This document shows positions 901-21,546 of a stretch of DNA of 37,665 nucleotides, one piece after another. Origin of the DNA: Pseudomonadota bacterium. Its GTDB lineage: Bacteria > BMS3Abin14. Location of the stretch: contig QIEJ01000109.1 of the NCBI GenBank assembly GCA_003228585.1, positions 1 through 37,665 of the forward strand, written 5' to 3'. A program made the position numbers and the translations under genes. The stretch's first letter is position 1. The number at the start of each line of letters is the position of its first letter. The notes beneath the pieces are model-generated. The model worked only from the letters and a program-made list of their open reading frames with translations. It had not been told where the DNA came from and did not search any database.

Positions 901-2241
901 TCACATGAGTGGTAAGACCCAGATAAGCACCATGAAAATATAGCAGATCACCAGGGAGGATATGACATAGGGCACTGTGTAGGAGAAGAACTCCTTGAGG
1001 GCCATCTTCTCACCATCCTCTTTCTCCCCCATCGAAAGGGCCACAAACAGGGCCGGCGCGCCCGCTATGGTGAGATTGCTTCCCAGTGTCCCCGACCAGA
1101 CGAGTGCCCAGTAGTAGGGCCAGACGTTCAGATCCATGGTTTCACCAAGGTCCCGGATCACGTAGAGGAGCGTCAGGATGAACGCGTCGTGCTCAACCAC
1201 CCCAACGATGGGCGCCGTCACCCAGTAGAGAACCGATGTCCCCACCAGGAGACCCTGTTCGATAAAGGGTACGAACCAGTTGGCGACGATTTCGAGGATG
1301 TGGGTTTGCTCCATGCCTCCCACGAGAGCGAAAAGGGCCGCGTAAAACGCGATGGCGTTCCATTCGATCTCCGATAGCATGTGTTCGAGGTCAGGGACGT
1401 CGAATTTAAGGGGTTTTTTCAGGATCTCTACGGCCAGGACCATGAGGAGCGTCCCCGCGAAGGCGATGAACCCGAGCTTGACCCCAAGGAACTGCCGCAT
1501 GGCCATGGCGATTATGGTAAGGACAAACCCACCGACGACAAGAACGGCGAACTTCTTGTCCTTGATGTGCTCTGTCGTCTGTCCTGCTGCTTCGTGGGCC
1601 GCTTCCTCGTCAAGAACACAGAACGCGAGATCGGACTTCAGGAACTTGAAATAGAAGAGGACGAGAACGATGAGGTAGGTCGCCGTCAGGATGAGGAACG
1701 ACGACGGCCTCCCTGAATGCCAGATGAAACCGAGGAACTCCACGCCGGACACGCTATGGAGCATCTGGGGCGGTAGGTCGCCGAGAAGAAGAGCCGTTCC
1801 CATGAAGTTCGAGCAGAGGCCGATAAACAGGATGGGGCCAGTAGCCTTGAAACCATAAAGCTTGCGGATGTGGAAGATAATGGGCGCCAGCATCAGCACC
1901 ACCACCACATTGTCGATGAACATCGACACGAAGCCGGCGAGTCCGCCGATGAGGGTGACAAAGAGGGGGATGTTGCCCTTGGACCAGTGAAGCGTCCTGT
2001 CACCGAGATATTCGGGGATACCGGTTTTGCCGAAGTAACCGGCGATGAGCCAGACGCTGATGAGGATCATCATGACGTTCCAGTCCACAAAGGTAAATGC
2101 CTGGACCTCGGTCATGCTGCCAACTGCTACCATGGCGACAACACCCAGCAGGGCAGCCACAACAGTGTCGATTTTACGAATGATGACAAAAATAATCGTG
2201 ACTGCGAAGATTATCGCAGTGGTGATCTGGATCGGTTCCAT
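901..2241 (-). CDS. SLC13/ArsB-NhaD ion-transporter superfamily permease
   Basis: Multi-TM ORF; likely start at MEPIQITTAIIF (CAT 2239-2241) rather than the upstream ORF start at 2355. Motifs include FIDNVVVVLMLAPII and GSNLTIAGAPA. Confidence 0.82.
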   Translation of the reverse strand: MEPIQITTAIIFAVTIIFVIIRKIDTVVAALLGVVAMVAVGSMTEVQAFTFVDWNVMMILISVWLIAGYFGKTGIPEYLGDRTLHWSKGNIPLFVTLIGGLAGFVSMFIDNVVVVLMLAPIIFHIRKLYGFKATGPILFIGLCSNFMGTALLLGDLPPQMLHSVSGVEFLGFIWHSGRPSSFLILTATYLIVLVLFYFKFLKSDLAFCVLDEEAAHEAAGQTTEHIKDKKFAVLVVGGFVLTIIAMAMRQFLGVKLGFIAFAGTLLMVLAVEILKKPLKFDVPDLEHMLSEIEWNAIAFYAALFALVGGMEQTHILEIVANWFVPFIEQGLLVGTSVLYWVTAPIVGVVEHDAFILTLLYVIRDLGETMDLNVWPYYWALVWSGTLGSNLTIAGAPALFVALSMGEKEDGEKMALKEFFSYTVPYVISSLVICYIFMVLIWVLPLM

Positions 2242-2318
2242 GTTCCTCCCCTTCCAAGGATTTAACTGAATGAACCAGGCAAAAACCGGTTCAAAACAGT
2301 AGTGCGCAATCTGAATAC

Positions 2319-3278
2319 TCAGGCTCGTTCGCTGCTTGTCTTCATTGCCTCCCATCGATTGGAGATGGCCGTTTTCAAGGCGTCCTTTGCTTCTGAAGCC
2401 CCCATGGGACTGTATCCCAGAAGCTCTCTCGCCCGGGTGTCATCCAGTTCCCAGGGATCGGCCAGAAAAGCACTGCCCTCCCATTGATCCTTTGGGATAC
2501 ATCTGACTTCACACAGGGACCCGGTTACCTCTCGAACCATCCGGGCAACCTCCTCCCAGGTTACGTAGACGGTGGAAAAATTGAACGTCTGTCCGAAAGC
2601 CCCTGGATTAAACAGGCACAGCTCCATTCCCTGATACAGATCCGCCATGTGTACGAAACTGCCCCCGGAATCTGCCGGAACCTCCAGAGGTTCACCGCCA
2701 GCGGCTATCTTGAGCATCTGCCTTAAATGTTTTCCAGCTATGTCATCCCCGTATGCCCACCAGAAACGGATGACTGTCGCGGGCAGATCGTTCTGACTCC
2801 AGTACATAAGGCAGAGCTTCTCGGCGGCTGCCTTGGCGATGCCGTAAAGGGGCTTTCGCGCCTCCTCCACGACAAGAGGGTGTTTTTCGTCGAGGGGTGA
2901 ATACTGAGGCTTTCCGTAAACTACCGCCGTACTCGTGTAGATCAGGTGCTTGACCTTCTGAGCCACCATTTCCTCAAGAAGGTATATATGACCGATCAGG
3001 TCGTGCTCAAAAACCTCCAGAGGTTCTCCCGAGAAAGACCAGGCCAGGTGGAGAACCGCATCCACGCCTTCAACCGCTGCTTTCACAGCATCCTTGTCCT
3101 CAATGCCGGCCTGGAAAAGGGCCAGTTTGTCACCCTCCATGGACCGAAGCGGGCCCACTTCACGGTCAATGACCCTGATCTCGTACCCCTTTTTCAGAAG
3201 AGCAGTTGTCCAGTAACTCCCGCAGGACCCTGCTCCTCCAGTTATCAGGATTTTTTTTGGCGATTCCATGATTTCCAC
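2319..3278 (-). CDS. NAD-dependent epimerase/dehydratase (extended SDR)
   Basis: N-terminal ILITGGAGSCGS Rossmann motif, YTSTAVVYG, YGIAKAAAEK (YxxxK). Confidence 0.85.
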   Translation of the reverse strand: MEIMESPKKILITGGAGSCGSYWTTALLKKGYEIRVIDREVGPLRSMEGDKLALFQAGIEDKDAVKAAVEGVDAVLHLAWSFSGEPLEVFEHDLIGHIYLLEEMVAQKVKHLIYTSTAVVYGKPQYSPLDEKHPLVVEEARKPLYGIAKAAAEKLCLMYWSQNDLPATVIRFWWAYGDDIAGKHLRQMLKIAAGGEPLEVPADSGGSFVHMADLYQGMELCLFNPGAFGQTFNFSTVYVTWEEVARMVREVTGSLCEVRCIPKDQWEGSAFLADPWELDDTRARELLGYSPMGASEAKDALKTAISNRWEAMKTSSERA

Positions 3279-3330
3279 CTGTAATCAGGGTTTATAACAG
3301 AATTCATATCAGGAATTGAGAAAGAAACGA

Positions 3331-3362
3331 GGTCCGGGTGAGTTGAAATCCTCACCCGAACC
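3331..3362 (-). terminator. Intrinsic terminator after tctA-like gene
   Basis: Minus strand GGTTCGGGTGAG-GATTTCAA-CTCACCCGGACC followed by TCGTTTCTTTC, just past the stop at 3377. Confidence 0.8.
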
Positions 3363-3376
3363 TTATCTCTATTTAA

Positions 3377-4900
3377 TTATGCCGGGGCTTCCTCATCTTT
3401 GCTCTTCATCTTGTCCTTGATCAGCTTGAATGCCGGAAGAGCGAAGAGGAATAATGCGACAACCATGAATATTGCCGAAATAGGCCGGGTGAAGAAAATA
3501 CCGAAAGACCCGTCACCGATAATCAGGCTCTGGCGCAGGAACCTTTCGGTCATGGCCCCGAGGACCAGGGCCACCGCCAGCGGAGCGAGGGGATACTTGA
3601 GCTTCTTCATGACGTACCCGAGACCTCCGAAAACAAGGGTACACCACACGTCAAACATGAGGTTCCGCATTACATAACTTCCTATGAAGCAGGCGATGAC
3701 GATGACCGGGGTCAGGAGACCCCATGGTATCCTCATGATGGAAGCCAGGACCGGTGTCCCGATGAGGCAGATGATCAGGCAGGCCGTTCCGGAAAGGAAC
3801 AGACTGGCAATAAGCCCCCACACGAAGACTGGCTCCTCCAGGAACAACCTCGGCCCGGGCCACAGGCCCCACATGTAAAGACCCGCCAGAAGAACGGCCG
3901 CAGTGGGGGAGCCGGGGATCCCCAATGAGATCATGGGAAGCAGGGCGCCGGTGCCCGCCGCATTGGCGGCTGCCTGAGGAGCGAGAATCCCCTCGATGGC
4001 CCCTTTTCCGTACTTTTCAGGGTTTTTCGAGTATTGCTTGGCGATACCGTAGCCGAGGAACGAGGCCGGAGTGGCTCCCGTACCGGGAAGGATGCCCACA
4101 AAAAAGCCCATAAGGGCACTCAGTAAGGTCAGGCCGAAATGCTCTTTGGTAGCCATTATGCCGCCCTTGATATCCTCCCAGCCCAGCTTGGCATGGATGA
4201 CTTCCTTGATCTCTATGCTGAGCCGCTCCTCGCCGTCGATCATGATCTCACCGAGACCGAAGAGTCCGATGGTCACCGGAACGAAATGAAACCCACTTAA
4301 AAAAGCCATAGTCCCGAAGGTCAGACGCGGTGAACCCGTAACCACGTCCAGGCCCGCCATGGTCAGGAGAAGACCGAAGCTTGTGCTGATGAGGGTCTTC
4401 AGAGCGCCGCCGGTTCCCAGACCCACGAAAGTACTGAAGGCCAGCATCATGATGGCGAACATCTCGGGCGGCCCGAATTTCAGGGCAAACAAAGCCAGAG
4501 GCATGGCGAGGGTCACGAAAAAGACGGCCGCGACCATGATTCCCACGAAGGAGGACACGAAAGCGGCCGCCAAAGCCAGGCCCGCCTTTCCCTGCTTGGC
4601 CATGGGATATCCATCGAAGATCAGAGCCACCGACCAGGGTTCCCCGGGTATGGCAAACAAGATCGAGGTGATCACCCCTCCGTACAACGCCCCCCAGTAT
4701 ATGGCGGCCAGGAAGATGATGCCGACCTCGGGGGGAACGAGAACGGTGACAGGCAGCAAAAGCGCCACGCCGGCGGTGCCTCCGAGTCCTGGAAGAACAC
4801 CCACCGCCAGACCCAGTAAAAGGCCCACGGTCATCATGAACAGGGACAGAGGTTGAAATGCGACCCCGAATCCCACCAAAAGGTTAGCAAGTGTTTCCAT
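3377..4900 (-). CDS. tctA: Tripartite tricarboxylate transporter, large permease TctA family
   Basis: MTVGLLLGLAVGVLPGLGGTAGVALLLPVT and GILPGTGATPASFLGYGIAKQYSKNPEKYGKGAIEGILAPQAAANAAGTGALLPMISLGIPGSPTAAVLL are TctA signatures. Confidence 0.96.
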   Translation of the reverse strand: METLANLLVGFGVAFQPLSLFMMTVGLLLGLAVGVLPGLGGTAGVALLLPVTVLVPPEVGIIFLAAIYWGALYGGVITSILFAIPGEPWSVALIFDGYPMAKQGKAGLALAAAFVSSFVGIMVAAVFFVTLAMPLALFALKFGPPEMFAIMMLAFSTFVGLGTGGALKTLISTSFGLLLTMAGLDVVTGSPRLTFGTMAFLSGFHFVPVTIGLFGLGEIMIDGEERLSIEIKEVIHAKLGWEDIKGGIMATKEHFGLTLLSALMGFFVGILPGTGATPASFLGYGIAKQYSKNPEKYGKGAIEGILAPQAAANAAGTGALLPMISLGIPGSPTAAVLLAGLYMWGLWPGPRLFLEEPVFVWGLIASLFLSGTACLIICLIGTPVLASIMRIPWGLLTPVIVIACFIGSYVMRNLMFDVWCTLVFGGLGYVMKKLKYPLAPLAVALVLGAMTERFLRQSLIIGDGSFGIFFTRPISAIFMVVALFLFALPAFKLIKDKMKSKDEEAPA

Positions 4901-5021
4901 TTATACCTCCTGCGCTGATGCCGTTCTCCAAAAAAACTCCAACGGTCTATTGGAGGCTATCAAATCGGCAACAGCCCTGTATCATCTCGTTGATTGAATG
5001 AATTGGATCTCAATAATCAAG

Positions 5022-5060
5022 TAAATAGGAAACAGTCCCTCTAAATAGGAAACAGTCCCT
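5022..5060. repeat. Tandem duplication of TAAATAGGAAACAGTCCCT (20-bp period) at the 3' end of tctB
   Basis: Identical 19-mers at 5022-5040 and 5042-5060. Confidence 0.9.
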
Positions 5061-5514
5061 TCCGCCAGAGAAGGCTTTTGGGCAGAGGAAGCTTCAACCC
5101 TTTCTCCATGCCGAAATAAACGGCCCCTGTCATAATAATAGTAAAGATAATAACCGTGGCCCAGCGGTGTTTCCCGAGCCACCGGACGAAAAGAAGGCAA
5201 TAGCCTATAGTCGCGAAATAGACCCCAGTGTAGACGATCCCGATTGCGAGCAGAATCGCCGTGAAGAAGATCCGCACCACCTCTGCAAGACCCTCCTTGT
5301 TTTCAAAGAATCTGTCACCTGGATCTGTTTTCTTCAGGTTAATGACGACGAGTAATACAGCACAGACCAGCAGCAGCAAAGCCAGCCAGAAGACGGAAAA
5401 ACCCGCTTGAGGACCGTCTGCCTCCCAGCCGAAACCCAGCCGGGAAGCGTCCATAATCCCAATCAGGGCCACGAGAATAAAGAGCCCCGCCGTAATGATC
5501 TCACCTTTTTTCAA
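5041..5514 (-). CDS. tctB: Tripartite tricarboxylate transporter, small permease TctB family
   Basis: 157 aa, four predicted hydrophobic segments, between tctA-like and tctC-like genes. Confidence 0.88.
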   Translation of the reverse strand: MKKGEIITAGLFILVALIGIMDASRLGFGWEADGPQAGFSVFWLALLLLVCAVLLVVINLKKTDPGDRFFENKEGLAEVVRIFFTAILLAIGIVYTGVYFATIGYCLLFVRWLGKHRWATVIIFTIIMTGAVYFGMEKGLKLPLPKSLLWRKGLFPI

Positions 5515-5616
5515 AACTTGCCTCCCAGGGGTGCGACAAGAGGGGGCGCAGGATCACCGTAGTAACCCTGCACCCCCAATGTCAGCTTTCGTAAGTGAAT
5601 ACTCCTTAATCGAAGG

Positions 5617-6600
5617 CTACTTGAGCCAGCCCTGCGCCTTCATGATCGTGATGTGTTTTTTCTCATAATTCTCAACGAATTTCATCAGATCGTCACCCGT
5701 GATGGAGGTCGGCTGCAAGCCGGTTTTGGCCGCAAATGCCAGCCAATCCGGATCTTTGGAAATGTCCTTGAACAGAGCTACCAATCCTGCCTGCTCCGAT
5801 TTGGAAATACCCGGAGGAGCGAAGATGCCCCGCATCATGTTGTAGCTGAAGTCGAAGCCCAGCTCCTTGGCCGTGGGGGTGTCCTCATAACCCTTGACAT
5901 CGAGGCGCTCGTCCTGGAAGACCACCAGAGGGCGCACGAACTCGGGATAGAATGGACCGGCCTCACTGACCTGGTTCACGCTGGCCTCAATATGACCACC
6001 CACGAGGGCCTTGGCCACAGCACCGCCGCCCTTGAAGGGAACATACTTGAAGGGCTTGGTTTTGCCTATTTTCTCGATAGCGCGGAAGACGATCTCATCC
6101 TCCTGCTTGGAACCGGTTCCACCAACCAATATGCTCCTCTTCCTCGCCTCGCTGAGGAAGTCCTCGAAGGTCTTGAACTTGCTGTCCTTCTGGACCCAGA
6201 GCGGGAAGTTGTCCAGAGCAAGCAAGAAAACAGGCGTGAAGTCCCGGAATGTGAATGGAAGTTTCTGGAACAGCGGCGTGGTGACAAAGCTGTTCAGGGT
6301 GATGAGCATCATGTGGCCATTGCCCTTCTGGGTGAGAAGGTACTGCATGGCCACGGCCCCCGCGCCACCGGGCTTGTTAACCGGGATTATAACCTCGTCG
6401 ATGTACTTGTTCTTGACGTTGAGGCCGACCAGGAAACGGGCATATTTGTCGGCACCACCGCCCGCACCGGCTGATATGACGAACTCGACAGGCCTGGTAG
6501 GCCAGTCAGCGGCTTCGGCTACCTCGCCGAAGACAAACAGAACGGCACATACCATAATCGTAATAAGCACAAATGAATAACGTGATCTAATTCCACTCAT
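5617..6600 (-). CDS. tctC: Tripartite tricarboxylate transporter substrate-binding protein (TctC/Bug family)
   Basis: Signal peptide, then DWPTRPVEFVISAGAGGGADKYARF; FVPFKGGGAVAKALVGGHIEA; C-terminal Bug-like sequence. Confidence 0.94.
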   Translation of the reverse strand: MSGIRSRYSFVLITIMVCAVLFVFGEVAEAADWPTRPVEFVISAGAGGGADKYARFLVGLNVKNKYIDEVIIPVNKPGGAGAVAMQYLLTQKGNGHMMLITLNSFVTTPLFQKLPFTFRDFTPVFLLALDNFPLWVQKDSKFKTFEDFLSEARKRSILVGGTGSKQEDEIVFRAIEKIGKTKPFKYVPFKGGGAVAKALVGGHIEASVNQVSEAGPFYPEFVRPLVVFQDERLDVKGYEDTPTAKELGFDFSYNMMRGIFAPPGISKSEQAGLVALFKDISKDPDWLAFAAKTGLQPTSITGDDLMKFVENYEKKHITIMKAQGWLK

Positions 6601-6891
6601 GGTCTTTTTTCCTCCTTCAATAGGGTCTTCAGACCGTGGTTAACTTCTTCTCCCCCCCTCCTTCGCATTCTTCCGAACATTTCTTCGATTACACCCCCTT
6701 TTCTATTAGAATGGTTGGGTTTTAAACCCCTGGAAAAGGCGACAGTCCCCTTCTCGAGATCAAGGGACTTTCCACCGGTGATCTTATCACAGGGGCCTCA
6801 GTTTTGCAGCAGCTTAAGGCCTGAATGAACAGACCATTCGCCCACTTTGCAAGACCATTTCCCTACCCTTTTGATCTGTAAGAATCCCTTT

Positions 6892-6925
6892 CGGGCATCC
6901 TCCCTTATGACGGGGAGGATGCCCG
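6892..6925 (-). other. Strong hairpin between the oxidoreductase operon and tctCBA
   Basis: CGGGCATCCTCCC / GGGAGGATGCCCG, 8-nt loop, no clear U-tract. Confidence 0.75.
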
Positions 6926-6954
6926 ATTGATGTTTATGTCCTGTGATGTCTTTT

Positions 6955-7950
<996 letters not shown>

Positions 7951-7998
7951 TTATCAGCATCTATCAATCTGCTGACAGGCTAAAGACATTGATATCGC

Positions 7999-9189
7999 CT
8001 AGACCTTGTCGAAGTTCACCCAGTATACGTACTGGTCGACCTTGCCGTCCTTGGCTGCCTGGGTGAGAACCTTCGCCATGCTGTAGAACTCCTCGAGGGA
8101 GACGACCTCACCACCGAGACCGGCCATGAAAGAGGTAACAGGCGGAGGGTTGGGCACGTCGTACAGAGCGGACCGGACCTCATGAATAAGGTTTCCACCC
8201 TTCATGGCTCCACCGTAGGAGGTGCTCGTCTCGATGGTTCCAACAGCCTTGAACTTGGAAAGGCTCTCGGCAACAGCTTCTGTGGGGAACGGCCTCATGA
8301 AGCGCAGCCTCACCATACCAGCCTTGACGCCCTTTTCCCTGAGATGGTTCACGGCAAAACGGGCCGTCCTTGCGTGGCCGCCCTGCAGGAAGAAGACGAA
8401 CTCAGCATCGTCCGTCATGTACTCCTCCAGGAAGGGGTCGTAGTTTCGGCCGAACTGCTTGTTGAAGTCAGCGACGGCCTCTTCAATGACCTTGGGGGTA
8501 TCGATAAATGCCTGGGCTCTCTGGAGATCGATGGCCGGTCCCTGGTCGGGAAAGATCTGCGGACCGTGGGAGACAGGCTTAGTGGGATCCAGAGGATGGG
8601 GGTTGTTAAAAGGCGGCAGATACTCGTCCACAGCCTTCTGATCGGGGATGCTCACCTTCCCGGGGATGTGGGAAACGAAGTAACCGTCCTGGCAGCAGAA
8701 CTGGGGCAGCAGAACCCTGGCATCCTCACCGATCTTGAAATACATGATGGTGTTGTCCAGGACTTCCTGCGGATCGGCAGCCCAGCCCATGATCCATCCC
8801 TGATCTCGAGCGCTCATGACGTCGGTGTGCTCGGACCCGAAGTCACCTGGAGGATCAAGCGCGCGGTCTGCGATGGCCATCTGGCAGGGCAGTCGCCCGC
8901 CGGCGGCAGGAGAGTAGCACTCCATTGCGTAGGTCACACCCACACCGGAGCTTCCCGTGTAGGCCCTTGCCCCGGCAGCGGATGCTCCGTAAGCAATGGA
9001 AACCTGGGCATGCTCACCCTCGCCGTGAACAAACTCGGCATCGAGCTCGCCGTTGGCGACCAGTTTGGACAGTTCCATCATAATCCCCGTGTAGGGGCGA
9101 ATGGGGTAAGAGCTGATAACCTCGACTCTTGACAACATGGCACCGTAAGCTGCAGAAGAGCAGCCAGCCAAAAACATTTCTTTCGCCAT
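7999..9189 (-). CDS. 2-oxoacid:ferredoxin oxidoreductase alpha subunit
   Basis: AAYGAMLSRVEVISSYPIRPYTGIMMELSKLVANGELDAEFVHGEGEHAQVSIAYGASAAGARAYTGSSGVGVTYAMECY. Confidence 0.93.
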   Translation of the reverse strand: MAKEMFLAGCSSAAYGAMLSRVEVISSYPIRPYTGIMMELSKLVANGELDAEFVHGEGEHAQVSIAYGASAAGARAYTGSSGVGVTYAMECYSPAAGGRLPCQMAIADRALDPPGDFGSEHTDVMSARDQGWIMGWAADPQEVLDNTIMYFKIGEDARVLLPQFCCQDGYFVSHIPGKVSIPDQKAVDEYLPPFNNPHPLDPTKPVSHGPQIFPDQGPAIDLQRAQAFIDTPKVIEEAVADFNKQFGRNYDPFLEEYMTDDAEFVFFLQGGHARTARFAVNHLREKGVKAGMVRLRFMRPFPTEAVAESLSKFKAVGTIETSTSYGGAMKGGNLIHEVRSALYDVPNPPPVTSFMAGLGGEVVSLEEFYSMAKVLTQAAKDGKVDQYVYWVNFDKV

Positions 9190-9204
9190 TTTATATTCCT
9201 CCTC

Positions 9205-9552
9205 CTAGAAAGGTTTCTCCAGGCGGACCACACCACCTTTGAATTCCAGTTCGTTGACTGCGCTGATGCAATCCACGGGGCACTCGTTTTCACAGATGAG
9301 GCAGCCCTTGCAGTAGTCCGCGTTCCAGACCATCTTCTCTTCCTTCTCGTCCAGATGCCAGGTGGCATCGGGGCAGAAGAGAAAACAGTTCAGGCACAGA
9401 GTGCAGGCCTCATGGTCGATAACCGGACGGACAGTTCTCCAGTTCCCGGTGATCATCCCCTTGTTCTCTTTCTTGTTCGCGGGGAGAACCGCTCCCAGGG
9501 GGACCTGCAAGTGTTTAGGAATATTGAACTTTTCGCAGTACTTTTTGCTCAT
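9205..9552 (-). CDS. 2-oxoacid:ferredoxin oxidoreductase delta subunit, 2x[4Fe-4S] ferredoxin
   Basis: Two clusters: CTLCLNCFLFCP and CKGCLICENECPVDCI. Confidence 0.93.
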   Translation of the reverse strand: MSKKYCEKFNIPKHLQVPLGAVLPANKKENKGMITGNWRTVRPVIDHEACTLCLNCFLFCPDATWHLDEKEEKMVWNADYCKGCLICENECPVDCISAVNELEFKGGVVRLEKPF

Positions 9553-9581
9553 AACTTTCTCCTTCCAGGCTCAAAGACGTT

Positions 9582-10187
9582 TTACAGGTCTTTTACCACT
9601 GCTGACTCGTAGCCCGCTTTGGCACCCTCTTTGTTGGCCGACACCGCGACCAGGCTGTCAATGGTCAGGTTGTCAGTTCCGTGGCATGCAGCACCGGCCA
9701 GCACCGCCGAGATTCCAGCACCGACAGCGGAGACTTCAACGCCACCCTCAGATCCCATGAAGTCCAGACCTTCCATGGAGAACTCCTCCTCGGCGTCAAC
9801 ACAGATGATCTTGCTGAGCAGGTCCTTGTTGGGGATGAACTTGAGGATCTCATCGGGAGATCTCTTGGAGTTGACGACCAGGACTCCGCCTTTATCCATG
9901 CCCCAGAGAATATTCAATCCCTTGACGATGGTGTCGTCCATGATCACGACCAGGCTGGGGTTTTTGTTCTCATACTCGTAGCGCATCTCGATCTCTTCAT
10001 CGCTGATGCGGACATACTTCCGCAGTGGAACTCCAACTCTGTCAGGCAGGTCCGCATAATCGTCCCACGCCTGAACAAACTTGCCGTCCTTGTCCGCTGA
10101 GCTGGCCATGATAAGGGTCATGTGTCGCCCTTCCATATCCTGGACCACCCCGCGCGCCCAAATAGTAATTTCATATACATCGGACAT
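9582..10187 (-). CDS. 2-oxoacid:ferredoxin oxidoreductase gamma subunit
   Basis: YEITIWARGVVQDMEGRHMTLIMASSADKDGKFVQAWDDYADLPDRVGVPLRKYVRIS; gamma-domain pattern, first gene of the four-subunit set. Confidence 0.9.
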   Translation of the reverse strand: MSDVYEITIWARGVVQDMEGRHMTLIMASSADKDGKFVQAWDDYADLPDRVGVPLRKYVRISDEEIEMRYEYENKNPSLVVIMDDTIVKGLNILWGMDKGGVLVVNSKRSPDEILKFIPNKDLLSKIICVDAEEEFSMEGLDFMGSEGGVEVSAVGAGISAVLAGAACHGTDNLTIDSLVAVSANKEGAKAGYESAVVKDL

Positions 10188-10263
10188 AATGATTTTCCTC
10201 CCTTGTTCTATTGGTAGAACTCCAGTTTTCTACATAGGATGATAGTCCTATATCCCCCCCCTT

Positions 10264-10980
10264 CTAGTCGGGTTTTACTGGTTCCTCCTTTCCTTTCACC
10301 CCAAACAGACTGATTTCTATATCCTCAAGGTGCTCACGCATGATGTCGGCCGCGAGCTCCTTATCCCCGGCTTTTACAAAATTTAACAACTCTCTATGAC
10401 GGACGAGAGACTTCTCGGGTCTTCCCTCTACCTGAAGGTACTGGTCACGGCTTTCAGCCAGAGCATCCATAACGCTGTCCATGATTCGAATGAGTATCTG
10501 ATTTTTCGTCGCCTGGACAAGCGTGCAATGGAAGGTCTTGTCGAAATCAGTGCCGGTCTCTCCCCTGGAAATCTGCTCTTCCTGCACGCTCAGGATCTTC
10601 TCCATCTCAGCAATCTCATCCGGTGTGGCTCGCTCCGCGGCCAGATAGGCCAACTGCGGCTCAATGAGGCGCCGCATCTCAAAAAGCTCCGCCAGAGCGT
10701 CCTTCTTCGAAAGGATTGCGGAGGCCAGCGGCTGGACCAGTGTTTCAACAGATTGGCTGGCTATATATGTTCCGTCTCCCTGCCGGCTCTCCAGATAACC
10801 CTGACTTTCCAACGTGCGAAGTGCCTCCCGGACGGATGACCGGCTCACTTTGAAAACTTCCGACAGCTCGCGCTCCGTAGGAAGTTGATCTCCGGATTTG
10901 AGTTTGCCCTGGCTGATCATGTCTTTTATTTTTGAAACAATCTCCTCGTAAACTCTGGTTTTTTTTACCGGCTTGAACAT
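10264..10980 (-). CDS. FadR-subfamily (FCD) GntR transcriptional regulator
   Basis: wHTH: GKLKSGDQLPTERELSEVFKVSRSSVREALRTLESQGYLESRQGDGTYI; FCD: MRRLIEPQLAYLAAERAT, FDKTFHCTLVQAT, HRELLNFVKAGD. Confidence 0.96.
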   Translation of the reverse strand: MFKPVKKTRVYEEIVSKIKDMISQGKLKSGDQLPTERELSEVFKVSRSSVREALRTLESQGYLESRQGDGTYIASQSVETLVQPLASAILSKKDALAELFEMRRLIEPQLAYLAAERATPDEIAEMEKILSVQEEQISRGETGTDFDKTFHCTLVQATKNQILIRIMDSVMDALAESRDQYLQVEGRPEKSLVRHRELLNFVKAGDKELAADIMREHLEDIEISLFGVKGKEEPVKPD

Positions 10981-17455: not shown

Positions 17456-18058
17456 TTAAGGGGTGACAATCTTCAAAAATGCGCCGACCGCGAGGGGGAT
17501 GGTCAGGTTATCATTGAAAGGGCGGGGGAGTGCCTCGGCCAGGGTTCCTATAAGGGAAGCACCCAGCAGAACCGGAAGGCCGATATGCTGGATGGATCCG
17601 AAAAACCTTCTCAGGATCAGATAACCGGTGATAGACACCACAAAACAGGCGATGCTTCCCTCGAGGGTCTTGTCTCCGATCCTGATCCTTCCGAATCCCT
17701 TTCCAGCCAGGGCCGCCGCTCTGTCACCGAGAACCAGGGGGACCAGCGACAGCACGGCTATTTCCCGGGGGAAGAGCAGGAAGACCAGGAAAACCCCGCC
17801 CACGAAGGCCGGGGTCCCGGTAATTCCATCATGTTCGGAAGGGCGCATGAAGATGCCAAGGCTGCTCCGGGTAAACCTGTTGAAGGGAGGGCTGAAATGC
17901 CTTGCCGCCTCCACAGCCATTGTGACAAGCAGGATCGTGCCCAGCGCAACCCTGTTGGAGATCCCTGGAAGGTGATATCCCAGCGCCGCGAGGAAGATCC
18001 CTCCCACAGCATGAAAAACCGTCCTGGGCAGTTCAGCCTTTACGCTGCCGAATGCCAT
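17456..18058 (-). CDS. SEC59/DGK1/VTE5-like CTP-dependent lipid (polyprenol/diacylglycerol/phytol-type) kinase family membrane protein
   Basis: FHAVGGIFLAALGY, LVPLVLGDRAAALAGKGFGRIRIGDKTLEGSIACFVVS; the GDxxAAxxGxxxGxxxxxxKTxEGS pattern matches this family. Confidence 0.85.
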   Translation of the reverse strand: MAFGSVKAELPRTVFHAVGGIFLAALGYHLPGISNRVALGTILLVTMAVEAARHFSPPFNRFTRSSLGIFMRPSEHDGITGTPAFVGGVFLVFLLFPREIAVLSLVPLVLGDRAAALAGKGFGRIRIGDKTLEGSIACFVVSITGYLILRRFFGSIQHIGLPVLLGASLIGTLAEALPRPFNDNLTIPLAVGAFLKIVTP

Positions 18059-18059
18059 A

Positions 18060-19187
18060 TCAGACGTCCGGGAAATCTTTACGGTAGATCCGGTAGGTCT
18101 TGTAGTGGCGGGCGCCGAAGATCTTGGTCACGGTTTCGTTAACGATTCGATTGTCCTCGAGGATCCAGGACAACTCCCCGTACCAGTACCCGCTCCTGAC
18201 ACCGTAACCCCAGACCTCGGCGAACATGATGGCGTCGATACCTTTCTTCCGGAACTTCTCCCTCACACCCAGGGTCAGACACCGGCCGCTTTTAAAGTTT
18301 TTGGATGCCTTTATTGCTTTTATTATTCCCAGTGAAGTGAGCCGTCCGTTGAGATGCTTCAGGACCTGGTTGTAGTCAGGCAGCGACAGAATGAAGCCCG
18401 CAGGCTCACCATCGATAAAGGCGAAGGACACCATCTCCGGGACAACCAGGGGCTTGAGTTTTTTGGCCATGTGATCGAGTTCCTCATCGGTCATGGGTAC
18501 AAAACCCCAGTTTTTCTCCCACGCTTCATTGTAGATCGAGCGCACGACCTCCAGCTCCTCCTTGAACCGGGACATGTCCAGCGGCCGGACAACGAGGTCT
18601 TTCTCCCTCTTTCTGATCCTCCTTGCGATTTTCTCCAGGCGGTCCGGGATGCCTCCCCCCGCATCGAAAAAATAGGCGAAAAGGTCCTTTTCCTTCAAAT
18701 AGCCGGCTCCTTCAACCAGTTTCGGGTAATAGGGCGGGTTGAAGGTCATCATCACGAAGGGAGGTGAGACGAAATTGTCCACCAGCATCCCGCACTCCTC
18801 ATTGGTGCTCGGGTTGACCGGCCCGCGGCAGAACTCCATCCCCTTTTCCTTGAGCCAGCCTTCAGCCGCATCCAGCAGAGCGAAAGCCACCTCCGGATCC
18901 CGGACCGCCTCGAAAAAACCGAAAAATCCTGCTTTCTCGCCGTGGAACTCGTTGTGCCGGTGGTTGACGATACCGACGATCCTTCCCGCGGGAATCCCGT
19001 TCCTGAGACAGAGAAAAAGTTTTCGCTCCGCATGCCGGTAGAAAGGGTGCTTCGGGGACAGAAGCTCCGAGACGTCCTTCCTCAGTGGGGGAACCCAGTA
19101 AGGATTATTACGATAGATCTTCCAGGGAAGTTTGATGAAATCTTTGTAATGACGCCCACGCCCAGCGTCAACTATTTGAAGAGTCAT
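18060..19187 (-). CDS. GNAT-fold acyltransferase-like protein, ~375 aa; candidate bacterial ceramide synthase-type
   Basis: MTLQIVDAGRGRHYKDFIKLPWKIYRNNPYWVPPLRKDV...; family of large GNAT-like proteins; adjacent to SPT-like gene. Start MTLQ chosen over ORF start 19214. Confidence 0.72.
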   Translation of the reverse strand: MTLQIVDAGRGRHYKDFIKLPWKIYRNNPYWVPPLRKDVSELLSPKHPFYRHAERKLFLCLRNGIPAGRIVGIVNHRHNEFHGEKAGFFGFFEAVRDPEVAFALLDAAEGWLKEKGMEFCRGPVNPSTNEECGMLVDNFVSPPFVMMTFNPPYYPKLVEGAGYLKEKDLFAYFFDAGGGIPDRLEKIARRIRKREKDLVVRPLDMSRFKEELEVVRSIYNEAWEKNWGFVPMTDEELDHMAKKLKPLVVPEMVSFAFIDGEPAGFILSLPDYNQVLKHLNGRLTSLGIIKAIKASKNFKSGRCLTLGVREKFRKKGIDAIMFAEVWGYGVRSGYWYGELSWILEDNRIVNETVTKIFGARHYKTYRIYRKDFPDV

Positions 19188-19230
19188 TGGAAAATTCCAA
19201 ACTCCAAATCCCACATTCCAAACTCAAGAT
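19188..19230. repeat. Heptamer-periodic array (AATTCCA AACTCCA AATCCCA CATTCCA AACTCAA)
   Basis: 7-bp period read directly. Confidence 0.6.
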
Positions 19231-19297
19231 AAAACCTGAAAAACTTGATTCGAAATGGCAACAAAACCAGCTCCTTCTCTTTGGAATCTGAAATATG

Positions 19298-19335
19298 CCT
19301 TTCGACTCCGCTCAAGGCCCTGAGCCTGTCGAAGG
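19298..19335. repeat. REP-like palindromic dispersed repeat CCTTTCGACTCCGCTCAAGGCCCTGAGCCTGTCGAAGG
   Basis: Imperfect inverted repeat CTTTCGAC...GTCGAAG with internal CTCAAG/CTGAG arms; embedded in a heptamer tract. Confidence 0.65.
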
Positions 19336-19351
19336 TAAATCTGGAATTGGC

Positions 19352-20551
19352 TTAAGTGATAAGCCCCAGCTCTCGGCCTACTTTGACAAAGACTTCCAGC
19401 ACCCGGTCCAGATGCTCATCCGTGTGGGTAGCCATATAGCTGGTCCTGATGAGGGCTCTGCCTGAGGGTATGGCAGGGCTTACCACAGGATTGGCGAACA
19501 CACCTTCATCCTGGAGCATGAGGGCAAACTGAAACGCCAGAAGATCCTCACCGACGACAACGGGAATGATGGGAGTCGCCGCACCACCGATATCGAATCC
19601 GTAGGATTTGAATCCGTCCATCATGCGGTGGGTGTTCTTCCAGAGCCGCTCCCGGCGTTCCGGCTCCTGATCGATGATATCCAGAGCGGCGCTGACCGCA
19701 GACACCAGGGCCGGGGCCAGGCTTGCGGAAAAGATCATGGACCTGCTCATATGCTTCAGGTAGTCGATGATCTCTTCGGATGAGGCCACGAATCCTCCGA
19801 TGGTGCCCAGGGACTTGCTGTAGGTACCCATGATGATATCGACTTCGTCCTCGAGGTCGAAGTGCTCACACGTTCCGCGCCCGGTCCTGCCCAGAACTCC
19901 TACCCCATGGGCATCGTCAACCATGAGTCCGAATTCATGTTTCTCCTTGAGCCGGACAATGTCCGGCAAAGAGCTGATGTCGCCCTCCATGGAAAAGACC
20001 CCGTCCACAATGACCAGCTTGCTCTTGTCCCTGTATTTTTCCAGAAGGTGGTCCAGATCCCGGGAATCGTTGTGGTGGAATTTTTTTGTCTCGCCGAAGG
20101 ACAGCCGGCAACCATCTATAATGGAGGCGTGATTGAGCCTGTCGTTTATGGCTATCTCTCCCCTCTCCACCAGTGCCGAGATCACTCCGAGGTTCGTCTG
20201 GTATCCGGTCGCATAGACCAGGGCGGATTCCTTGCGGAAAAAATCCGCAAGCTTCTCCTCAAGAGCGACATGGATATCCAGCGTTCCATTAAGATACCTG
20301 GATCCGGCGCAGCCCGTACCGTACTTCATGACAGCTGCGGCAGCGGCCTCCTTGACCTTGGGGTGTGATGCCAATCCCAGGTAGTTGTTGGACCCGCACA
20401 TGACGACTTCCTTACCGTCCATGATAACCACCGGATCCTGTTGCGACTCGATCACCCTGAAGTAGGGATAAAGACCAGCAGCCCGCACTTGCTCGAGCCT
20501 TTCGAAATGATGACATTTATCGAAGATTCCCACTCTTGCCTCCTGAATCAT
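19352..20551 (-). CDS. Alpha-oxoamine synthase; serine palmitoyltransferase-like (rather than BioF/KBL)
   Basis: AAGLYPYFRVIESQQDPVVIMDGKEVVMCGSNNYLGLASHPKV...KYGTGCAGSRYLNGTLDIHVALEEKLADFF...NHASIIDGCRLSF...VDDAHGVGVLGRTGRGTCEHF...GTYSKSLGTIGG. Likely start MIQEARVG, 2 bp after the upstream SDR stop. Confidence 0.88.
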   Translation of the reverse strand: MIQEARVGIFDKCHHFERLEQVRAAGLYPYFRVIESQQDPVVIMDGKEVVMCGSNNYLGLASHPKVKEAAAAAVMKYGTGCAGSRYLNGTLDIHVALEEKLADFFRKESALVYATGYQTNLGVISALVERGEIAINDRLNHASIIDGCRLSFGETKKFHHNDSRDLDHLLEKYRDKSKLVIVDGVFSMEGDISSLPDIVRLKEKHEFGLMVDDAHGVGVLGRTGRGTCEHFDLEDEVDIIMGTYSKSLGTIGGFVASSEEIIDYLKHMSRSMIFSASLAPALVSAVSAALDIIDQEPERRERLWKNTHRMMDGFKSYGFDIGGAATPIIPVVVGEDLLAFQFALMLQDEGVFANPVVSPAIPSGRALIRTSYMATHTDEHLDRVLEVFVKVGRELGLIT

Positions 20552-20553
20552 CG

Positions 20554-21546
20554 TTATTTCAACCAGTGGTTCTCCCTGTACCAATCAGCTGTGATAACAA
20601 AAGCTGTTTCCAGCGGGATTTTGGCCATAAAACCCAGTTCCGCTTTTGCCTTCCGGGTGCTGCACACCCATCCGAACGCAGTGAGTTCGTTGACCTTGTC
20701 GCGGTTGAAAACGGTCATTCGACCCGAGACCTTTCCCCACAGTTCAGATCCGGCGGCAGCAGCGGCCAAAACCGGCCTCGGTATGAAAACTCCCTTCACT
20801 TTCCTGCCCAGCGCTTTCCCCAGAATACCCGGAAGCTGTGTCATGCCCAATGGTATCGGGTTGGCGATAAAATACTTTTCTCCGATCCTCCCCGATTCGG
20901 CAGCCTGCCAGACACCTTTAACCAGGTCGTCCACAAAGATCATACTGACCATGGAACGCCGGTTAAGAATGGGGAAGATACCCATGGAAGCCAGGCGAAA
21001 GAAGATAAATGCCTCCCTGTCCCTGGGACCGATAACCGTCGGCGGGCGAACCACAACCAGGGGCAGTGCTTTCATGTTGTGCAGGATGTTTTCACCCTCG
21101 AGCTTGCTCCGGCCGTAATCGGTGATCGGCACAGGAAGAGCGCTCTCCGTTAACGGACCTCCGGTTCCGCTGGGTCCCGAGACAGCCTGACTCGAGACAT
21201 AGACAAACACATCCGGCGGTTTACTGCAGTCCAGGGCGGTCCGGCCAATATTCCTGCACCCCTCGGCGTTGGTCCGAAAGTACTCCTCCCGGTTTCCCGC
21301 GGCGAGAGTGCCGGCAAGATGAAAAACGGCGTCGGCTCCTGAAACACCTTCCCTGAGGGCATCAGTGTTGTCAAGGTCACCCTGAATCATCTGGATTGAC
21401 TTGCCATCAAGCCATCCCGGGTTTGACGGTCGGCGAACCAGGCATCGCACCTCAACTCCCCGTTCAAGAAGAAAATCAACAAGGTGGCTTCCAATAAACC
21501 CTGTTCCACCGGTAACGAAGCAGGTGCGGATTTCCCGGGAAAACAT
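20554..21546 (-). CDS. Extended SDR / NAD-dependent epimerase-dehydratase; candidate ceramide reductase (CerR-like)
   Basis: CFVTGGTGFIGSHLVDFLLERGVEVRCLVR, YVSSQAV, YGRSKLEGE. Start at MFSREIR avoids overlap with polA. Confidence 0.85.
   Translation of the reverse strand: MFSREIRTCFVTGGTGFIGSHLVDFLLERGVEVRCLVRRPSNPGWLDGKSIQMIQGDLDNTDALREGVSGADAVFHLAGTLAAGNREEYFRTNAEGCRNIGRTALDCSKPPDVFVYVSSQAVSGPSGTGGPLTESALPVPITDYGRSKLEGENILHNMKALPLVVVRPPTVIGPRDREAFIFFRLASMGIFPILNRRSMVSMIFVDDLVKGVWQAAESGRIGEKYFIANPIPLGMTQLPGILGKALGRKVKGVFIPRPVLAAAAAGSELWGKVSGRMTVFNRDKVNELTAFGWVCSTRKAKAELGFMAKIPLETAFVITADWYRENHWLK

Follow-up and report, generated by a model that had tools for sequence, protein, structure and literature searches.

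Does a group of four minus-strand genes in a little-known uncultured bacterium of the lineage BMS3Abin14 encode the formation of a ceramide backbone, and is the membrane protein at its end part of that pathway? The genes lie at positions 17456-21546 of contig QIEJ01000109.1 (assembly GCA_003228585.1), which was analysed over 37,665 nucleotides (here called the window) and is part of a 2.09-Mb draft genome with 98.1% completeness. A ceramide pathway comprising spt, bcerS and cerR is established in Caulobacter crescentus (PMC11087976), and in the Black Sea Spt-like proteins were found in metagenome-assembled genomes (MAGs) of 38 phyla, often with co-located bCerS and CerR (PMC11334938). In this study, we observed the family-level identities of the genes, the conservation of the active site of serine palmitoyltransferase (SPT) and a conserved clustering. 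We consider the locus a bacterial ceramide-backbone gene cluster with a probability of about 0.85. Since the triad of SPT, bCerS and CerR has been published for dozens of phyla, the locus would add another case of a known pathway, and the only ingredient that is possibly new is the membrane kinase.

Gene order and proposed pathway

The locus comprises the following features:

20554..21546, minus strand: extended short-chain dehydrogenase/reductase (SDR), candidate ceramide/3-ketosphinganine reductase (CerR-like), 330 aa
19352..20551, minus strand: alpha-oxoamine synthase of the SPT clade, 399 aa
19188..19351, minus strand: SPT-GNAT spacer, 164 nt, with a palindrome and a stable predicted RNA fold
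18060..19187, minus strand: tandem-GNAT N-acyltransferase, candidate bacterial ceramide synthase (bCerS-like), 375 aa
17456..18058, minus strand: polytopic membrane protein of the Sec59/Dgk1/CdsA CTP (cytidine triphosphate)-transferase superfamily, candidate CTP-dependent lipid kinase, 200 aa

On the minus strand the order is thus SDR, SPT, GNAT and kinase-like gene, flanked by polA and azlCD. A sequence-only reading of this stretch had proposed a sphingolipid operon of four minus-strand open reading frames with junctions of ~2 bp (SDR-SPT) and ~1 bp (GNAT-kinase). All four reading frames were confirmed, and the distances from the SDR stop to the SPT ATG and from the GNAT stop to the ATG of the kinase-like gene were measured as 2 bp and 1 bp, respectively. 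These two coupled pairs are divided by the 164-bp gap between SPT and GNAT, while ~31 bp separate the polA stop from the SDR start and 12 bp the kinase-like gene from AzlC.

In the proposed pathway, SPT would form 3-ketosphinganine by condensation of a long-chain acyl group, supplied as acyl-CoA or acyl-ACP (acyl carrier protein), with an amino acid that is most likely L-serine. The GNAT enzyme would attach a second, amide-linked acyl chain, and the SDR would reduce the 3-keto group, thereby yielding dihydroceramide. The Sec59/Dgk1-like membrane protein would probably carry out a CTP-driven lipid phosphorylation with ceramide or long-chain base as possible substrate. Every one of these reactions is inferred, as is what the kinase acts on and whether acylation precedes reduction.

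The alpha-oxoamine synthase groups with SPTs

Among the NCBIfam models, the best score of the alpha-oxoamine synthase was obtained with SerpalmtaseCFB, by its name a Bacteroidota-type model (545.9 bits), followed by the BioF/Kbl family model (449 bits), glycine acetyltransferase (KBL; 424 bits) and BioF (399 bits). The best match in the PDB was the Sphingobacterium SPT (8guh/3a2b, about 2e-126). In a careful maximum-likelihood tree of 44 proteins, built in addition to a larger quick tree, the SPT side including the proven SPTs of Sphingobacterium and Sphingomonas was split from KBL/BioF at 100/100. The nearest neighbours outside the taxonomic family of the window's bacterium in this tree came from Deltaproteobacteria, Desulfofervidaceae and Nitrospirota MAGs, and the nearest SPTs outside the phylum included those of Desulfuromonadaceae and Deltaproteobacteria MAGs. 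For the comparison of active sites, the residues described in PMC10196870 were used. Every residue of the Sphingobacterium SPT that was checked is kept, namely N52, S81, H138, S185, D210, A212, H213, T241, S243, K244, A274 and R367. The protein carries the motifs CAGSR and GTYSKS, the latter matching GT(F)SKS, instead of ASVR and GTLGKA; position 274 is Ala, as opposed to Asn in the KBLs and Thr in the BioFs compared.

These results bear on three other readings of the enzyme. A KBL or BioF for threonine breakdown or biotin synthesis, with no role in sphingolipids, would belong to the same superfamily and the respective models do score, but the tree, the motifs and Ala274 all speak for SPT, and the gene sits beside those of a GNAT and an SDR. 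Furthermore, no bioB above cut-off was found in the window's genome (98%-complete draft) and no tdh match above the curated cut-off in 12 genomes of the phylum, which makes roles as BioF or KBL unlikely. Based on tree, residues and these two missing genes, the KBL, BioF and SulA identities were rejected, and we regard the KBL/BioF reading as having a practically negligible chance. Very unlikely as well is the formation of capnine-type sulfonolipids by a SulA-like enzyme using cysteate in place of serine. Their synthesis has been postulated to be similar to that of sphingolipids, but SulA carries Lys281 at the position equivalent to the SPT Ala (PMC9304779), and the window protein has Ala there like SPT. 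An SPT favouring alanine or glycine would lead to 1-deoxyceramides, which have no 1-hydroxyl group and could not be phosphorylated at this position. In the Black Sea, such lipids showed a correlation with Desulfobacterota and Bacteroidota (PMC11334938), and the Desulfuromonadaceae and Deltaproteobacteria MAGs among the nearest SPTs fit to this. However, that assignment was made by co-abundance only, and the active-site residues match those of SmSPT, a serine-preferring enzyme (PMC10196870), so that we consider 1-deoxyceramides as products unlikely.

An SPT-clade enzyme was also found on a Priestia megaterium plasmid (L214:4995-6209; Bacillota), where it has no GNAT or SDR neighbours and lies beside genes for a methyltransferase and an acyltransferase.

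The predicted acyltransferase and reductase

The AlphaFold model of the GNAT protein (18060-19187; pLDDT 93.4) is a tandem GNAT with a PDB match of 1.6e-14 in Foldseek. Identities of 35-43% were found to plasmid-encoded GNATs that adjoin an SPT in Rubrobacter, Streptomyces, Pseudomonas and Aureispira, and to those on plasmids of Sphingomonas and Roseomonas. The GNAT located between SPT and SDR on Rubrobacter plasmid 1 is 43% identical, the one of Streptomyces NBC_01001 39%, and the one of Pseudomonas BYT-5 (plasmid pBYT5-2) 35.9% over 362 aa. The neighbours of the latter (SPT, ACP, SDR, acyl-AMP ligase, nucleotidyltransferase, LptFG and acylglycerol kinase) form a set resembling the Caulobacter genes. 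Among the best 80 named relatives, which come from many phyla, an SPT-like gene was present within 8 kb in 56 cases and an SDR in 40; this pattern scan used a narrow GNAT alignment, since a broad one was too divergent. A bCerS-like GNAT was also seen on the Sphingomonas parapaucimobilis plasmid unnamed5 (L122:6001-7152), near lptFG, a fatty acid desaturase gene and asd.

The SDR (20554-21546) is an extended, Rossmann-type member of its family with the motifs GGTGFIGSH and YGRSK (YxxxK) and a Pfam match to Epimerase (2.4e-34). It is encoded beside SPT and the bCerS-like GNAT and is 27-37% identical to the SDRs adjoining SPTs in the named plasmids. HpnA was its best NCBIfam model; the score of 155 of 368 bits is far under the cut-off and this identity was therefore rejected. 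Of the three backbone assignments, the CerR-like one, made from motifs, pairwise identities and gene context, is the least secure.

The outcomes named as refuting the sequence-only reading were looked for and, lipid detection aside, did not occur: the SPT-like enzyme stays apart from KBL and BioF, and the GNAT is homologous to GNATs beside SPTs, including that of the Caulobacter-like Pseudomonas cluster. The SDR is an extended one related to those of SPT clusters. Its interpretation as a sphingolipid operon is supported.

Several points weigh against this interpretation. The SPT score lies under the SerpalmtaseCFB equivalog cut-off (545.9 vs 640 bits), a scoring threshold and not a biochemical feature, and the choice between serine and alanine or glycine cannot be read from the sequence. 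The SDR is only 27% identical to that of the Pseudomonas cluster, while the others reach 31-37%. The bCerS and CerR assignments depend on homologues in Caulobacter-like clusters. Finally, all support comes from sequences, structure models and gene context.

Comparison with known clusters

We take the bCerS of Caulobacter to be of the GNAT type. The backbone of C. crescentus then consists, like that of the window, of SPT, a GNAT-type acyltransferase and an SDR reductase (PMC11087976), but next to its cluster the window has neither a dedicated ACP and an acyl-CoA synthetase, as described for Rhodobacteria (PMC9386255), nor a CpgB-type kinase, and its SPT resembles the Bacteroidota type more closely than the Sphingomonas type. 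The Black Sea clusters contain the same three co-located homologues; the word "kinase" appears nowhere in the main text of PMC11334938, whereas the window has a kinase-like fourth gene. On Rubrobacter radiotolerans plasmid 1 and a plasmid of Streptomyces sp. NBC_01001, the genes for SPT, GNAT and SDR are adjacent as in the window, but in the order SPT-GNAT-SDR instead of SDR-SPT-GNAT and with no Sec59-like gene. The triad is also present on an Aureispira plasmid and in the Caulobacter-like Pseudomonas plasmid cluster.

Conservation within the phylum

The phylum was sampled by 12 genomes from one family and eight genera. GNAT and the kinase-like gene are adjacent in all 12 genomes, SPT adjoins GNAT in 11, and SDR adjoins SPT in nine, two of the other three being contig ends; a chance arrangement is thereby excluded. 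In G002 (73% complete), GNAT, kinase, AzlC and AzlD are present with no SPT or SDR beside them. The flanks (glnE-ilvE-polA upstream, azlCD downstream) are syntenic in most of the genomes too, so that synteny alone is no proof of a single operon. The GNAT-kinase junction (-14 to +10 bp in 12/12) is consistently the tightest of the cluster, while SDR-SPT ranges from -31 to 121 bp, SPT-GNAT from 9 to 259 bp and kinase-AzlC from -4 to 209 bp; because these lengths use automatically picked start codons, individual values may shift.

Several family members encode a second, distant GNAT paralogue (27-35%) outside the cluster (G005:C99:2106-3221, G001:C1:1966687-1967766, G011:C4:20-934 and others). 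LpxC was found in 10/12 genomes; the lineage thus probably makes lipid A, and a sphingolipid would not obviously be a lipid A substitute here.

The fourth gene: a possible sphingolipid kinase or general lipid kinase

The 200-aa membrane protein (17456-18058) gave no Pfam match, neither to PF00781 (DAGK_cat) nor to another family; PF01148 was detected in 4 of 18 family members. The family profile matched CdsA in a PDB profile search (4q2e, E 0.0005), and CdsA was also the best Foldseek match of the AlphaFold model (pLDDT 93.6), with a probability of 0.92-0.96 and a weak E-value of about 0.1. Conserved in the family are the motifs GDRA..GKG.GR....KTLEGS and E.LPRP.DDNLTIP. We take GDRA..GKG.GR..KTLEGS and LPRP.DDNLTIP to be typical of the Sec59/Dgk1/phytol kinase family. 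Yeast Dgk1 and Sec59 are CTP-dependent diacylglycerol (DAG) and dolichol kinases, and by the motifs presumed for them they share GD..A..G..G..KT.EGS and the polytopic fold with the window protein. Of the SEC59/DGK-type lipid kinase proposed by the sequence-only reading, fold and motifs are supported at the superfamily level, as a Sec59/Dgk1-like relative of CTP transferases; kinase activity and a link to sphingolipids would go beyond this.

The protein may be a kinase for ceramide or long-chain base, but equally the general DAG or polyprenol kinase of the cell. CpgB (PMC10331486) and dhSphK1/PG1348 (PMC9045371) phosphorylate ceramide or long-chain base, and an analogous role is conceivable here, but they resemble the ATP-dependent sphingosine/DAG kinase fold, whereas the window protein is small, polytopic and of the CTP-transferase superfamily. 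As the known bacterial sphingolipid kinases have this other fold, a CTP-dependent ceramide/long-chain-base kinase is possible; a search of the papers accessible to this analysis found no bacterial CTP-dependent sphingolipid kinase. That the fourth gene encodes such an enzyme with Sec59/Dgk1 fold, as a non-homologous replacement for the ATP-dependent CpgB/dhSphK1 and a fixed part of one uncultured phylum's ceramide operon, appears conceivable but rather doubtful. A general DAG or polyprenol kinase, placed here by inherited synteny and unrelated to sphingolipids, is the somewhat probable explanation. Strong matches to the Sec59-like family (E about 1e-20 or better) were found in 90/374 other genomes, 43 with and 47 without GNAT, and the neighbouring genes are syntenic as well. 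Over 386 genomes, no linkage of the kinase family with the triad was seen outside the phylum except for one pair 6 kb apart. DgkA is absent from 12/12 phylum genomes, leaving the role of a general DAG kinase open to the Sec59-like protein. Strong DAGK_cat matches occur in two of these genomes (G008, G010), and the window's genome has no recognised DAGK_cat lipid kinase, its two weak hits being phosphofructokinase-like and NAD-kinase-like by sequence. On the other side stand the GNAT-kinase junction, the tightest in all 12 genomes while the others range widely, and a weak co-occurrence with GNAT (odds ratio 2.1, p 0.0035, uncorrected for kinship).

The pair outside the phylum was detected in G065 (L215:4926-12605) by comparing listed gene places; this is the sole genome found there with a Sec59-like gene less than 10 kb from GNAT, on the same strand.

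The spacer and other features of the window

Within the SPT-GNAT spacer, whose predicted RNA fold has a z of -3.1, a palindrome of 33 nt (TTCGACAGGCTCAGGGCCTTGAGCGGAGTCGAA) is located at 19301-19333 together with a TTGGAATTT-rich stretch. Among the loci compared, it was seen in that of the window alone and in none of the relatives' loci; it looks like a dispersed intergenic repeat. Promoter and terminator scans revealed nothing exceeding chance. Elsewhere in the window (901-10980), genes for two transporters, TctABC (a Tct-type tricarboxylate transporter) and a CitMHS transporter, are grouped with those for a GntR/FCD regulator and a 2-oxoacid:ferredoxin oxidoreductase set.

Biological meaning

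With this locus, a little-known uncultured lineage joins the bacteria that probably make sphingolipids, the three-gene backbone being kept in most of the genomes sampled. The three-gene recipe itself is already known. Should ceramide be a substrate of the coupled membrane kinase, this enzyme would to our knowledge be the first CTP-dependent sphingolipid kinase, and its presence would hint at phosphorylated ceramide head groups in bacteria that possess LpxC as well.

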